Origin: Bizionia paragorgiae
GTDB taxonomy: Bacteria > Bacteroidota > Bacteroidia > Flavobacteriales > Flavobacteriaceae
Direction: 5' to 3'
Length of the DNA: 64,000 nucleotides
NCBI RefSeq assembly: GCF_900107625.1
Contig: NZ_FNQK01000007.1
Coordinates: 62,001 to 126,000 of the forward strand
The translations under genes and the position numbers were made by a program. The notes under the pieces are model-generated. The model was not told the DNA's origin. It did no database searches and saw only the letters and a list, made by a program, of their open reading frames with translations. This document shows, in pieces, positions 6,324-20,115 of this stretch. Numbering within the stretch: position 1 is the first letter of the stretch; the number at the start of each line of letters is the position of its first letter.

Positions 6324-6509
6324 AATATATTTTAAATTTAATGATGAATTAGCAAACACCGAAATCATTTTGATGCTCTGATTGCGTTTGTAATGCCAAT
6401 TTCATCTGTAATTGTGTTTTTATTTCTATGTCTAGCCCTGATTGATGCGACATCCTTTTTTATTTTCAAAAAAGATATAGCGGAAAGCAGGATCTAGCTC
6501 CTAATTATT

Positions 6510-14360: not shown

Positions 14361-14924
14361 ATGACTAAAGCAGCATTACGAAAAAAGTATAAAACATTAC
14401 GAAATCAGTTAACTGAAGACCAGATAGAAGCCTTTAGCTTAGAGATAGCCAATCAATTGCTTTCGCTTCCTATTTGGGAAAAAGATTTCTACCACCTATT
14501 TCTTTCTATTGAAACACAACGGGAGATAAACACCGATTACATTTTAAATATTTTATCTGGCAAGGATAAAAACATCGTCATTTCAAGAAGTAATTTTAAA
14601 ACAACCACTTTAGAGAATGTACTATTAACCGATAGTACTCGAATAAAACTAAACGCTTATAACATTCCCGAACCTATAGGAGGCATTCCCATAGCGACTA
14701 CTGCTATAGATGTTGTTTTTATACCCTTACTAGCCTTCGACGTAAAAGGGAATCGCATTGGATACGGAAAAGGCTTTTACGATAATTTTCTAGCAGATTG
14801 CAAAGCTGAAACATTAAAAATTGGACTTTCATTTTTTGACCCTGAACCCGAGATAAAAGACGTATACTCTAAAGATATTCCTTTAGACTACTGTATCACA
14901 CCAAACAAAATTTACAGGTTTTAA
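14361..14924 (+). CDS. 5-Formyltetrahydrofolate cyclo-ligase
   Basis: 187 residues, normal for the MTHFS/YgfA family. The enzyme uses ATP to convert 5-formyl-THF to 5,10-methenyl-THF, clearing a dead-end folate. Visible signatures are KAALRKKYKTLRNQL at the N-terminus, the VFIPLLAFDVKGNRIGYGKG substrate/ATP segment and FYDNFL after it. It follows the aspartoacylase-like gene by 4 bases and closes the plus-strand operon. Its stop overlaps the lspA stop (convergent genes sharing TTAA). Confidence 0.93.
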   Translation: MTKAALRKKYKTLRNQLTEDQIEAFSLEIANQLLSLPIWEKDFYHLFLSIETQREINTDYILNILSGKDKNIVISRSNFKTTTLENVLLTDSTRIKLNAYNIPEPIGGIPIATTAIDVVFIPLLAFDVKGNRIGYGKGFYDNFLADCKAETLKIGLSFFDPEPEIKDVYSKDIPLDYCITPNKIYRF

Positions 14925-15565
14925 ACAGACTGCTCTACACCGGCCTCTTGCACAGGGAACGCTTTTTTATTAAAGAAGATAAGGAGGATAAACCCGATAC
15001 TTATCGCCACATCGGCAATATTAAAAACCGGTTCGAAAAAAGTAAAAAATTCACCACCATAAAAGGGAATCCATTCGGGCAAATACCCTTTCCATAAGGG
15101 GAAATACAACATATCTACAACCTTACCGTGAAACAAGCTATCATAACCGCCTTCTTTAGGCAAAAAGCTTGCTATTTGAGCGTAACTATGATCGAAAATC
15201 ACACCGTAAAACACAGAGTCTATAATATTCCCTAACGCCCCAGAGAAAATAAAAGACAACGCAATAATAAGCACACGAGAGCCTGCTTTTTGAAGTGTTG
15301 AAAACAACCAATAGCCAATACCAAAAATGGCTAATATTCTAAATAAAGTTAAGCTTAACTTGGCTAAACGATCACTAATAAATGGAAATATATCACTTAA
15401 TTTTGTTCCCCAAGCCATACCGTCATTTTCGATAAAATAAATTCTAAATTTATCGAAAACAGTCAGACTTTCCCCCAGTTGAAAATGGGTTTTAATATAC
15501 ACCTTACTAATCTGATCGATAAGCAAAATTAAAAGGATAAGAAAAGTGGCTTTTTTAAAAGTCAT
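14921..15565 (-). CDS. lspA: Lipoprotein signal peptidase (signal peptidase II)
   Basis: Inner-membrane aspartic protease that removes signal peptides from prolipoproteins. Four membrane segments are apparent. The catalytic aspartates lie in GNIIDSVFYG and FNIADVAIS. The protein is 214 residues, longer than the roughly 165 of E. coli, because of an extra stretch of about 30 residues between the two Asp motifs (through SFLPKEGGYDSLFHG). From memory, this is common in Bacteroidota. It ends the ileS - DksA-like - hypothetical - lspA run, the order commonly seen in flavobacteria. The N-terminus at MTFKKATFLILL gives a good first membrane helix. Confidence 0.93.
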   Translation of the reverse strand: MTFKKATFLILLILLIDQISKVYIKTHFQLGESLTVFDKFRIYFIENDGMAWGTKLSDIFPFISDRLAKLSLTLFRILAIFGIGYWLFSTLQKAGSRVLIIALSFIFSGALGNIIDSVFYGVIFDHSYAQIASFLPKEGGYDSLFHGKVVDMLYFPLWKGYLPEWIPFYGGEFFTFFEPVFNIADVAISIGFILLIFFNKKAFPVQEAGVEQSV

Positions 15566-15591: not shown

Positions 15592-16215
15592 TTATTTTTC
15601 GATTTTTATTAGCTTAATATCACCGTGAATACTATTGAGTTCGATGGTATTGGCACCATAAACTAGTGGAACTTTAGTTAAAGTCCCATATTTTGAATGC
15701 GCTTTAACTCGGGCATAGTTGGTATGCACTTCGACATCACCATTAATTGTATTAATTAGAGCACTCCCAAAAAAGTCTGTTAGCAGACAATTTCCTTGAG
15801 CTAATTCTACAGTAAAAAATGTATAATCCCCTTTTGCTTTTACCGACCCAATATCACTTTTCACATACACTTTTAAATGTTTTGGAATTTTCAATACCAC
15901 CTCTATAGACACTACTTTATGCGCGCTTAGTTTATCATTATGATTTGCAAAAGAAGGCTTGAATACGCTAGAAATATATAGCGTGCTGTCGGTAATTTGT
16001 TGGAAAACCGCAATTTCCGGAGTATACTCCCCTTCAATTTTAGTTAGCAATTGAACCATTTTAGAATCTTGAGTTTGTATGTCTATTTTAAACATAGAAT
16101 TCCCATCAACTACAACACTATTCACTTCCGAGGCATCAAAAGTCTCATCTACTTGCTTTTGAGCTACAAGATACGAACTAAAACACAGACATAATACAAT
16201 TAAAAAAGCCTTCAT
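15592..16215 (-). CDS. Exported beta-strand-rich hypothetical protein (DUF4097-like)
   Basis: 207 residues with a Sec signal peptide (MKAFLIVLCLCFSSYLVAQ). The rest is made of short beta strands with repeated VKS/VKA-D-G turns (VYVKSDIGSVKAKGDYTF, ALINTINGDVEVHTNYA, ELNSIHGDIKLIKI). This resembles the single-stranded right-handed beta folds of DUF4097 or head-GIN-type putative adhesins, but I could not assign it firmly. It sits between the DksA-like gene and lspA. A strong hairpin separates it from the upstream gene, so it may have its own promoter. Confidence 0.7.
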   Translation of the reverse strand: MKAFLIVLCLCFSSYLVAQKQVDETFDASEVNSVVVDGNSMFKIDIQTQDSKMVQLLTKIEGEYTPEIAVFQQITDSTLYISSVFKPSFANHNDKLSAHKVVSIEVVLKIPKHLKVYVKSDIGSVKAKGDYTFFTVELAQGNCLLTDFFGSALINTINGDVEVHTNYARVKAHSKYGTLTKVPLVYGANTIELNSIHGDIKLIKIEK

Positions 16216-16255
16216 TTAGATGTTAAAATAGGAATGTAATATAAGGATTCAAAAC

Positions 16256-16290
16256 ACAAAACGCTTCAATTTAGAGTTGAAGCGTTTTGT
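16256..16290 (-). terminator. Strong hairpin between the DksA-like gene and its downstream neighbour
   Basis: A perfect 14-bp inverted repeat (ACAAAACGCTTCAA with its complement) around a 7-base loop. On the minus strand the stem ends in TTTTGT and is followed by GTTTTG. It lies 32 bases past the stop of the DksA-like gene and would end or attenuate ileS-DksA transcription before the next gene. Confidence 0.75.
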
Positions 16291-16321
16291 AATGGTGTAA
16301 ATTTAAAACAACGGTGCTGTA

Positions 16322-16705
16322 TTACTTCTGCAAGTTTTTAGCTTCTATACTAAGCGTTGCATGAGGTACGAGCTCCAAACGTTTTTTATTAATAAGCTTA
16401 CCTGTAACTCGGCAAATACCGTAGGTTTTATTCTCAATTCTTATTAATGCATTTTTAAGATCGCGAATAAACTTCTCTTGTCTAATAGCTAATTGAGAGT
16501 TAGATTCTTTACTATTAACTGCACTCCCTTCATCGAAGGCTTTAAACGTTGGCGAGGTGTCGTCCGTTCCGTTATTCTGATCGTTAATATAAGCACTCTT
16601 AATAAGCTCTAAATCGTGTTGTGCTTTTTCAATTTTATCTAGAATTAATGTTTTAAATTCTAATAAATCTTTATCTGAATATCTCGATGTGTTTTCTATT
16701 GTCAT
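16322..16705 (-). CDS. DksA/TraR-family protein lacking most zinc cysteines
   Basis: 127 residues with a long N-terminal coiled-coil helix pair (about 12-90) and a C-terminal zinc-finger-like fold ending in the highly conserved PHATLSIEAK. DksA-type proteins bind the RNA polymerase secondary channel and modulate promoters during the stringent response. Only one of the four usual zinc Cys residues remains (C98 in YGICRVTG, with T101 where a second Cys would be), which I recall as common in Bacteroidota copies. It starts 5 bases after the ileS stop. Confidence 0.88.
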   Translation of the reverse strand: MTIENTSRYSDKDLLEFKTLILDKIEKAQHDLELIKSAYINDQNNGTDDTSPTFKAFDEGSAVNSKESNSQLAIRQEKFIRDLKNALIRIENKTYGICRVTGKLINKKRLELVPHATLSIEAKNLQK

Positions 16706-16710
16706 AATTT

Positions 16711-19700
16711 CTAAATTTTTTGAATAAACAACTTGGTATGTACTGTATCGAATTCAACATCTATACCGTTATTTAATTCGTCCATAATTACAAGCTCATT
16801 GGTTAAAGTTTCTGCTTTTATGTAAGCTTCATTCGCTTTTACCGCCTCATTAACTTGCTCGTCCTTTAGAAGTTTCACATTAATTCTATCTGTAACTTCA
16901 AAACCAGAATCTTTTCTTAAGTTTTGAATACGATTTACGAGTTCTCTTGCGACACCTTCTTTTCGTAATTCGCTAGATATGGTAACATCTAAAGCAACGG
17001 TGTAAGCGCCTTCATTTGCAACTAACCAACCTGCTATATCTTGTGAGGTAATCTCTACATCACTGACTTCTAAAGTAATAATTTTTCCGTTACAATTTAC
17101 ATCATGTTGCCCTTTTTGCTCAATATTTTTAATATCCTCAGCAGTCATTTTAAGTATCTCGCTGGCAATCAACTTCATATCCTTCCCAAAACGTGGCCCT
17201 AAAGCTTTAAAATTTGGCTTTACTTGCTTCACTAATATGTCTGAAGCATCGTCTAACAGCTCTACTTCCTTAACATTAACCTCGTGTTTTATTAAATCTG
17301 CTACCGCCAAAATCTCCTCACGTTGCTGTTCGCTATCGATAGGAATCATAATTTTTTGTAATGGCTGGCGTACTTTTATCTTCTCTTTAGCTCTTAATGA
17401 CAACACTAAAGATGAAATGGTTTGCGCAGCTTCCATTTTACGTTCTAAAGCTTTATCAATAAACGCAGAATCACTTTCTGGGAACCTTGACAAATGTACA
17501 CTTTCAAACGCTTCTGATTGTGTCGTTTTTGTTAAGTCTAGGTAAAGTTTATCCATAAAGAAAGGAGCTATTGGCGCACCTAGCTTCGCAATGGTTAACA
17601 TACACGTATATAGGGTTTGGTAGGCCGATATTTTATCTGTTTGATAATCACCTTTCCAAAAACGCCTTCTACTTAAACGCACATACCAGTTACTTAAGTA
17701 ATCTTGAGTAAAATTAGATATTGCTCGTGCAGCCTTTGTAGGCTCGTATTCGGCGTAGAAAGCATCTACTTTTTCAATAAGCGTATGTAACTCTGAAAGA
17801 ATCCAACGGTCTATTTCAGGGCGTTCTTCTAGAGGCACATCGTCTTCAGCATACGTAAACTTATCGATATTTGTATATAATTGAAAGAACGAATAGGTAT
17901 TGTATAAGGTTCCAAAAAACTTGCGTTTCACTTCTTCTATACCATCCACATCAAACTTTAAGTTATCCCACGGATTAGCATTTCCAATCATATACCAACG
18001 TGTCGCATCGGCACCGTAAGTCTCTAAAGTCTCAAAAGGATCTGTAGCATTCCCTAGACGTTTCGACATTTTTTGACCGTTTTTGTCTAACACTAATCCG
18101 TTAGACACCACATTTTTATAAGCCACAGAGTCGAAAACCATAGTTCCAATGGCATGTAGCGTATAAAACCAACCACGTGTTTGGTCTACCCCTTCCGCAA
18201 TGAAATCGGCAGGAAAGGCTTTATTATCATCTATATTCTCTTTGTTTTCGAATGGGTAATGCCATTGTGCATAAGGCATAGAACCAGAATCGAACCATAC
18301 ATCTATTAAATCACTCTCACGACGCATTGGTTGTCCCGATGCAGAAACTAAGGTTATCTCGTCGACAATATTTTTATGTAAATCTAGTTTCGCATAGTTT
18401 TCTTCTGAGTTATCACCCACCTGAAAATCTTCAAAAATATCTTTTTCTAAAACGCCCGCAGCAACTGCTTTAGCCATTTCAGATTTTAGCTCTTCTACCG
18501 AACCAATACAAATTTCTTCTTTACCATCTTCGGTTCTCCAGATAGGCAAAGGAATTCCCCAATATCTAGAACGCGATAAATTCCAATCGTTAGCGTTTGC
18601 CAACCAGTTTCCAAAACGTCCTTCACCTGTAGACTTCGGTTTCCAGTTAATGGTTTTATTAAGCTCGTGCATACGATCTTTAACATCGGTAACTTTAATA
18701 AACCAAGAATCTAACGGGTAGTATAATATAGGCTTATCGGTTCTCCAACAGTTAGGGTAACTGTGTTTATATTTTTCAACTTTAAATGCTTTATTCTCTT
18801 CTTTTAATTGAATAGCAAGCTCCACGTCTACAGAACGCTCGGGTGCTTCACCATCGGCATAGTACTCATTCTTAACGTATTTACCGGCATACTCCCCCAT
18901 TTCCGGTCTAAATTTACCTTGTAAATCTACTAAAGGCACCAGATTATCGTTTTCATCTTTAACTAGCATTGGTGGAATTTCTGGAGAAGCTTGTTTTGCT
19001 ACCAAAGCATCATCGGCACCAAATGTTGGTGCGGTATGTACAATTCCTGTTCCGTCTTCGGTAGTTACGAAATCACCAGAAATCACTCTAAAAGCATTCT
19101 CAGGATTATCGTTTGGCAACGCATACGGCAGTAACTGCTCGTATTTAATACCTACAAGATCTTTACCTATAAACTCTTTAACCACGAAGTAAGGTATTTT
19201 CTTATCTCCATTGTTATAGTCTAACAATTCAGCTTTGGTTTCTACCCGCTTAAATTTACCGTCAAACTGTTTATTCACTAAGGGTTTTGCCAAAATCACA
19301 TTCATAGGTTTAAATGTGTATTGGTTATAAGTTTCTACTAAAACATACTCTATTTTAGGCCCTACAGTCAAGGCTGTATTACTCGGTAAGGTCCACGGTG
19401 TGGTCGTCCACGCTAAAAAGAAAATATCGCCTTCATTCTGTAAAAAATCTGGTAATGTATTTTCTACGGCTTTAAATTGAGCAACCACAGTAGTATCGGT
19501 AACATCTTGATAAGTTCCCGGCTGATTCAGCTCGTGAGAACTTAAACCTGTACCCGCTTTTGGCGAATAAGGCTGAATCGTATAGCCCTTGTATATTAAG
19601 TTTTTATTATAAATTTCTTTAAGCAACCACCATACACTTTCCATGTATTTAGGCTCGTAAGTGACGTACGGATTATCCATATCAACCCAATATCCCATTT

Positions 19701-20115
19701 TCTGGGTCAGGTCATTCCACACATCGGTATAACGCATTACGGCTTTACGGCACGTTGCGTTATAATCTTCAACAGAAATTGTTTTCCCAATGTCCTCTTT
19801 AGTAATACCGAGTTCTTTTTCCACACCAAGTTCTATAGGTAAACCGTGAGTATCCCATCCGGCCTTACGCTTCACTTGAAACCCTTTCATGGTTTTATAA
19901 CGCGGAAAAATATCTTTAATAGCACGTGCTAGAACGTGGTGCACACCTGGTAATCCATTTGCAGAGGGAGGTCCTTCAAAAAACACGTAAGGTTGGCTAC
20001 CTTCACGTGAAGTAACACTCTTTTCAAAAATATCATTCTCCTTCCAGTAACTTAGAATTTCTTCTGCTACATTTGGTAAGTTAAGTCCTTTATATTCAGG
20101 GAATCCTGTGCTCAT
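16711..20115 (-). CDS. ileS: Isoleucine--tRNA ligase, IleS2 type with rearranged HIGH motif
   Basis: Charges tRNA-Ile with isoleucine. 1134 residues, the length of the eukaryote-like IleS2 class. The class I catalytic core, the CP1 editing domain (about 200-410, with TTPWTLPSNTALTV) and the anticodon-binding region (from about 780) are all present. KMSKR starts at residue 682. The N-terminal signature, normally HxGH, reads G57-V58-H59-H60 here; the canonical order at this place would be HYGH. The codons are unambiguous (GGT GTG CAC CAC). This GxHH arrangement has been described in a subset of IleS2 enzymes with very high mupirocin resistance. A near-consensus promoter element (TAATTTCG) lies at 20141-20148. 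Confidence 0.97.
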   Translation of the reverse strand: MSTGFPEYKGLNLPNVAEEILSYWKENDIFEKSVTSREGSQPYVFFEGPPSANGLPGVHHVLARAIKDIFPRYKTMKGFQVKRKAGWDTHGLPIELGVEKELGITKEDIGKTISVEDYNATCRKAVMRYTDVWNDLTQKMGYWVDMDNPYVTYEPKYMESVWWLLKEIYNKNLIYKGYTIQPYSPKAGTGLSSHELNQPGTYQDVTDTTVVAQFKAVENTLPDFLQNEGDIFFLAWTTTPWTLPSNTALTVGPKIEYVLVETYNQYTFKPMNVILAKPLVNKQFDGKFKRVETKAELLDYNNGDKKIPYFVVKEFIGKDLVGIKYEQLLPYALPNDNPENAFRVISGDFVTTEDGTGIVHTAPTFGADDALVAKQASPEIPPMLVKDENDNLVPLVDLQGKFRPEMGEYAGKYVKNEYYADGEAPERSVDVELAIQLKEENKAFKVEKYKHSYPNCWRTDKPILYYPLDSWFIKVTDVKDRMHELNKTINWKPKSTGEGRFGNWLANANDWNLSRSRYWGIPLPIWRTEDGKEEICIGSVEELKSEMAKAVAAGVLEKDIFEDFQVGDNSEENYAKLDLHKNIVDEITLVSASGQPMRRESDLIDVWFDSGSMPYAQWHYPFENKENIDDNKAFPADFIAEGVDQTRGWFYTLHAIGTMVFDSVAYKNVVSNGLVLDKNGQKMSKRLGNATDPFETLETYGADATRWYMIGNANPWDNLKFDVDGIEEVKRKFFGTLYNTYSFFQLYTNIDKFTYAEDDVPLEERPEIDRWILSELHTLIEKVDAFYAEYEPTKAARAISNFTQDYLSNWYVRLSRRRFWKGDYQTDKISAYQTLYTCMLTIAKLGAPIAPFFMDKLYLDLTKTTQSEAFESVHLSRFPESDSAFIDKALERKMEAAQTISSLVLSLRAKEKIKVRQPLQKIMIPIDSEQQREEILAVADLIKHEVNVKEVELLDDASDILVKQVKPNFKALGPRFGKDMKLIASEILKMTAEDIKNIEQKGQHDVNCNGKIITLEVSDVEITSQDIAGWLVANEGAYTVALDVTISSELRKEGVARELVNRIQNLRKDSGFEVTDRINVKLLKDEQVNEAVKANEAYIKAETLTNELVIMDELNNGIDVEFDTVHTKLFIQKI

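Follow-up and report, generated by a model that had tools for sequence, protein, structure and literature searches.

Does a class I signature with the hallmark of extreme mupirocin resistance, read in a single bacterial genome, identify an unusual resistance gene or an ordinary core gene? This question is raised by ileS in a stretch of 64,000 nucleotides from Bizionia paragorgiae (contig NZ_FNQK01000007.1, positions 62,001 to 126,000; hereafter the window). Its product, an isoleucyl-tRNA synthetase (IleRS), carries GVHH in place of the canonical HxGH. The motif was read correctly in the window enzyme; it is one already described in print, and the gene that carries it belongs to the ordinary core set. 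The swap of the first and third motif residues is an old lineage trait, universal in the phylum as sampled, and is not distinctive of the window genome.

The swapped motif and the type of the enzyme

The original prediction described a 1134-residue IleRS with GVHH at residues 57–60, and this was borne out by the translation of the open reading frame and by its codons. Residues 48–60 read GPPSANGLPGVHH and the surrounding residues 45–66 read FFEGPPSANGLPGVHHVLARAI, with Gly57, Val58, His59 and His60 encoded by GGT GTG CAC CAC. The motif itself stood, but its predicted place, 19937–19948, was one base too high (Table 1). The canonical motif does not lie elsewhere in the sequence: in alignments, GVHH superposes on the HAGH, HIGH or HMGH of the IleRS of MupA, Sutcliffiella, Paenibacillus, Escherichia coli and Bacillus velezensis. 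With Gly in the first and His in the third position, the enzyme has the sequence of the G/AXHH class, in which the HxGH site starts with Gly or Ala and has His as its third residue. The KMSKR motif is intact, as had been predicted.

The window enzyme scored 1006.9 bits against the ileS equivalog model TIGR00392 of NCBIfam, well above the curated cut-off of 621.4. It does not belong to the MupA or MupB families, for which it reached 752.9 and 771.3 bits against an NCBIfam cut-off of 1900 each. Pfam matches comprised the catalytic domain, the anticodon-binding domain and, at the C-terminus, DUF5915.

Table 1. Positions of the features in the window, with the evidence for each
Feature	Position	Strand	Basis
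ileS, IleRS2, 1134 residues	16711..20115	minus	Open reading frame; TIGR00392; Pfam tRNA-synt_1, Anticodon_1, C-terminal DUF5915; tree position on the IleRS2 side
Non-canonical class I signature GVHH replacing HxGH, residues 57–60	19936..19947	minus	Codons GGTGTGCACCAC; alignment to HxGH of other IleRS
KMSKR (KMSKS loop), intact, residues 682–686	18058..18072	minus	Translation, alignment
IleRS residue 654 (His)	18154–18156	minus	
IleRS residue 674 (Leu)	18094–18096	minus	
DksA/TraR C4 zinc-finger protein, the next gene after ileS	16322..16705	minus	PF01258; also follows ileS in Riemerella and Parabacteroides
lspA, signal peptidase II, downstream of ileS	14921..15565	minus	PF01252
Unassigned open reading frame between lspA and dksA/traR	15592–16215		
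Flavo-1 RNA	6430–6498	plus	Rfam

Structural matches and a tree both assign the enzyme to the IleRS2 type, in agreement with the original prediction. The best relatives in the PDB were four entries of Priestia megaterium IleRS2 (779.8–792.7 bits). The top match, 8c8w, reached 792.7 bits compared with 317.5 bits for the best entry of P. megaterium IleRS1. According to the sections of PMC10485003 drawn on here, from which the IleRS1 or IleRS2 identity of these entries is taken, 8c8w is a GVHH mutant of the Priestia enzyme. In a tree of 60 rows, built with the motif columns left out, a split with 100% support in the Shimodaira–Hasegawa-like approximate likelihood ratio test separated 56 IleRS2 rows, including the window, from four IleRS1 or IleRS1-like rows. 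The latter are E. coli, B. velezensis, Shinella and a Variovorax plasmid protein (L244) on a very long branch. The E. coli enzyme is a named IleRS1 (PMC4861432, in the part used here), and the B. velezensis and Shinella rows were classed as IleRS1 by similarity. This is a quick tree without bootstrap, dominated by one phylum, in which 15 of the 57 inner branches are weak; the program warned of meeting long branches (L242 with L244; L067 with L070 and others) and of odd composition in 13 rows.

The rows nearest to the window are Aestuariibaculum and Tenacibaculum, with a support of 98 for the trio and of only 87 for the pair of window and Aestuariibaculum. The enzymes of Aestuariibaculum marinum and Tenacibaculum aquimarinum are 84% and 82% identical to the window enzyme over nearly the full length and carry GIHH and GVHH, so that only the second motif residue varies. 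Rows of the window's phylum fall beside Ignavibacteria.

Two further rows were observed in passing. The Variovorax protein, from plasmid 2 of Variovorax sp. SRS16, belongs to the class I tRNA ligase family; its motif is HLGH, it gave no KMSK-type match, and its branch lies beside IleRS1. An unverified faecal record labelled Bacteriophage sp. (MT835484.1), possibly a bacterial contig, holds an ileS frame of 1039 residues that reads HIGH and falls among the IleRS2 rows of the tree.

A single inherited gene with conserved neighbours

A profile search of the window genome (3.14 Mb, 99.9% complete) gave ten matches, one of them above the ileS cut-off. No second ileS was found by this search, which upholds the expectation that the gene is the only housekeeping ileS. 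The remaining nine matches sit in four further frames of 898, 1017, 714 and 508 residues, whose sizes and scores suggest the valyl-, leucyl-, methionyl- and cysteinyl-tRNA synthetases. In Riemerella and Parabacteroides the order is ileS, then dksA/traR, then lspA; in E. coli, too, lspA is found downstream of ileS. A genome of the same genus has an ileS 94% identical to the window gene. The G+C content at 16001–20000 is 0.370, within the range of 0.338–0.387 over the 16 stretches of the window. A single ileS within the conserved dksA/traR and lspA neighbourhood is what is expected of a housekeeping gene. The neighbours of the window ileS are those of its relatives, and in the tree the gene clusters with other members of its family. 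It is thus a housekeeping gene obtained by descent and neither an acquired nor an unusual resistance gene.

Plasmid-borne IleRS2 genes do exist, namely mupA on pUSA03 and the ileS next to the polyketide genes of pTML1, and on this precedent the window gene might be a horizontally acquired resistance determinant like mupA. We regard such an origin as very improbable. Besides the neighbours, the sole ileS and the usual G+C content, the tree places the window gene within the Flavobacteriaceae and leaves no other Flavobacteriaceae ileS outside its group. Moreover, both plasmid enzymes are of the HxGH type. MupA, which confers mupirocin resistance, is an IleRS2 like the window enzyme; it differs by its HAGH motif, its location on a plasmid and an identity of only 38%. 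The ileS of the Pseudoalteromonas plasmid pTML1 encodes HHGH, and this enzyme is therefore without the motif swap. The pTML1 plasmid presumably makes thiomarinol, with its ileS providing self-resistance.

Close relatives of the window gene were also met in two records filed as plasmids, from Riemerella anatipestifer (NZ_CP081938.1) and Parabacteroides distasonis (NZ_OY725767.1). As candidates for plasmid-borne GxHH genes they were rejected: both records look like chromosome pieces, since the neighbours of ileS are core chromosomal genes (dksA/traR and lspA; lepA in Riemerella). Elsewhere in the window lies a Flavo-1 RNA, a member of an Rfam small RNA family, with 65.8 bits against a gathering score of 42.

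GxHH across the phylum

The searched phylum appears, from the named relatives and the tree, to be Bacteroidota in the wide sense. GxHH was found in all 99 genomes of the phylum sample (60 genera), read from 88 genes fetched and 11 others. The motif was GIHH in 72 and GVHH in 26; the last genome has GVHH ahead of an internal stop. With up to eight candidates scored per genome, there was one IleRS frame in each of the 99 genomes at E <= 1e-90, two rows in one genome being a single frame of 1177 residues. The internal stop is a TAG after the motif region in the only ileS match of its genome; in a gene expected to be essential it is perhaps an assembly error.

A set of 119 genomes (118 genera) of the family, with up to six candidates scored per genome, gave the same picture: 115 had one row and four had two rows in a single frame. 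GxHH was present in all 104 genomes read out of these 119, with 59 GIHH and 41 GVHH among the 100 fetched and GxHH also in the other four. The scan of genomes, whose patterns did not contain the motif, was evaluated for its best 80 named loci, which are hence skewed to close relatives. Four lacked the N-terminus and 75 of the other 76 had GxHH, the sole exception being HVGH in a metagenome-assembled genome of Clostridia. In the first search of the phylum, 294 of 296 genomes were above the ileS cut-off. The motif was read for a minority of these genomes, in sets that overlap partly with the 99-genome sample, and GxHH was found in the best 30 (30/30) and in seven of seven readable among eight low-match outliers. 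No HxGH or IleRS1 exception occurred among these eight where readable: the seven gave GxHH in split or fragmented matches, and in the eighth the match was a fragment of 74 residues at the end of a contig (profile positions 2–70), probably an ileS truncated after its start.

The swap is not a chance event or a sequencing error, because it is present in 99/99 genomes of the phylum sample. That it is such an error, or that it inactivates the enzyme, is hardly credible. The latter idea draws on the finding that the swap abolishes the activity of IleRS1 (PMC10485003, in the sections drawn on). The window enzyme, however, is an IleRS2 and the sole ileS found in a nearly complete genome. What is new here is this phylum-wide count, which extends what had been published on where the motif occurs. 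The motif itself, its presence in IleRS2 and the mupirocin link were already known from 2023 (PMC10485003).

Mupirocin and the history of the motif

The predicted tie between GxHH and mupirocin hyper-resistance in some IleRS2 enzymes is published. In the sections of PMC10485003 drawn on here, the motif was exchanged in both directions and crystal structures were solved, and a tree of 379 prokaryotic IleRSs held 86 G/AXHH IleRS2 and no IleRS1 with the motif. The natural ALHH enzyme of Deinococcus had an inhibition constant (Ki) for mupirocin of 6.6 mM, which fell 823-fold to 8.1 µM after exchange to HVGH. Conversely, exchange to GVHH raised the Ki from 0.20 to 35 µM in Thermus IleRS2 and from 1.08 to 460 µM in Priestia IleRS2 (PMC10485003). 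For Streptomyces griseus IleRS, a Ki of 10 mM is given (PMC4861432, part used here). The window enzyme shares the G/AXHH class with the Deinococcus radiodurans and S. griseus enzymes, for which a millimolar Ki is reported (PMC10485003, PMC4861432). It differs from the former by GVHH instead of ALHH, and is a Bacteroidota enzyme known by sequence. Its closest solved relative is P. megaterium IleRS2 (8C8U/8C8V/8C8W), which naturally has HVGH and a wild-type Ki of about 1 µM; the structure of its GVHH mutant reveals how the swapped motif fits in.

Since the window enzyme has the sequence features of this class, it most plausibly works by the same mechanism. By analogy, His59 in the third position probably stands in during catalysis for the His that is missing from the first and probably clashes with bound mupirocin, so that the core IleRS should be intrinsically very insensitive to the antibiotic. 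We therefore favour, with a probability of roughly 0.88, a vertically inherited, single-copy housekeeping IleRS2 of the G/AXHH class, in which His59 probably has the catalytic role and sensitivity to mupirocin should be very low. The motif, the IleRS2 type, the single copy, the conserved neighbours and the presence throughout the phylum sample are observed; the catalytic role of His59 and hyper-resistance at the level of the window enzyme are inferred, the latter on good grounds, from the related enzymes.

Several points weigh against this explanation. A literature search, mostly of titles and the starts of abstracts, gave no mupirocin Ki or minimum inhibitory concentration (MIC) for a Bacteroidota enzyme or strain. 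The parts of PMC10485003 and PMC4861432 used here deal with enzymes of Deinococcus, Streptomyces, Thermus, Priestia, E. coli and yeast, and neither main text contains the string 'bacteroid'; mupirocin MICs of various species are collected in Fig. 7 of PMC4861432. Position 674 is Leu in the window enzyme and His582 in Priestia IleRS2, so that the pocket is not identical. Furthermore, the Ki of the GVHH variants reached just 35 µM in Thermus and 460 µM in Priestia, and the level is therefore not predictable from the motif alone. In the portion of PMC7564983 consulted, mupirocin was tested on Staphylococcaceae only. PMC13085705, in the portion consulted, predicts with mupirocin more Bacteroidaceae diversity and also more isolates of Enterobacteriaceae. 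As E. coli, a member of the latter family, has IleRS1, the ability to grow with mupirocin does not tell which mechanism is at work.

Alignment columns were also filtered: a single residue had to occupy 90% or more of 50 GxHH rows and no more than one of six HxGH IleRS2 rows. Besides the two motif positions, 18 columns passed, His654 and Leu674 among them. His654 occurs in 48/50 GxHH rows against 0/6 HxGH IleRS2 rows, and Leu674 in 45/50 against 0/6 (five His, one Ile); one exception to Leu674 is Thermoflexus, with GIHH and His. In the alignment of the PDB matches, residue 674 corresponds to His582 of Priestia IleRS2, which is described as the analogue of the mupirocin-stacking Phe586 of Priestia IleRS1 (PMC10485003). 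The association of positions 654 and 674 with GxHH may serve as a lead, not as a test, as the rows share ancestry. Entry 1ile, which we take to be Thermus IleRS, aligns with Leu at 674 and His at 654 together with an HVGH motif.

These data bear on the possibility that the swap is an ancestral, neutral or catalytically driven state of the IleRS2 clade, with mupirocin insensitivity as a by-product without an ecological role. The presence of GxHH in every genome of the phylum sample is in line with this, as is parsimony, which requires three changes on the 60-row tree, of which the starred branches force only one. Positions 654 and 674 mostly track the motif, as if the pocket had settled, and 1ile, if indeed from Thermus, has both residues. 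On the other hand, the published reconstruction places HxGH in most early IleRS ancestors and the swap later, presumably under antibiotic pressure (PMC10485003, sections drawn on). The tree is also dominated by one phylum, as many as 18 columns passed the filter, and the GxHH enzyme of Thermoflexus has His674. A by-product origin is thus possible, though we give it somewhat less than an even chance. The further idea that compensating residues, with Leu674 and His654 as candidates, lock the swapped motif in place throughout the phylum is tentative and rather unlikely.

A motif that is striking in a raw genome read is, as far as sampled, a trait of an entire phylum. Tables of resistance genes that list Bacteroidota ileS under mupirocin resistance likely list a core gene; one such table, in the part seen, is that of Ornithobacterium hominis (Flavobacteriaceae). 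The Thermus enzyme is described as a natural reversion to HxGH (PMC10485003). If the locking of the motif by compensating residues were true, the residues that permit GxHH might be found by comparison with this revertant, and Bacteroidota would be intrinsically blind to mupirocin through ancestry, not through selection.
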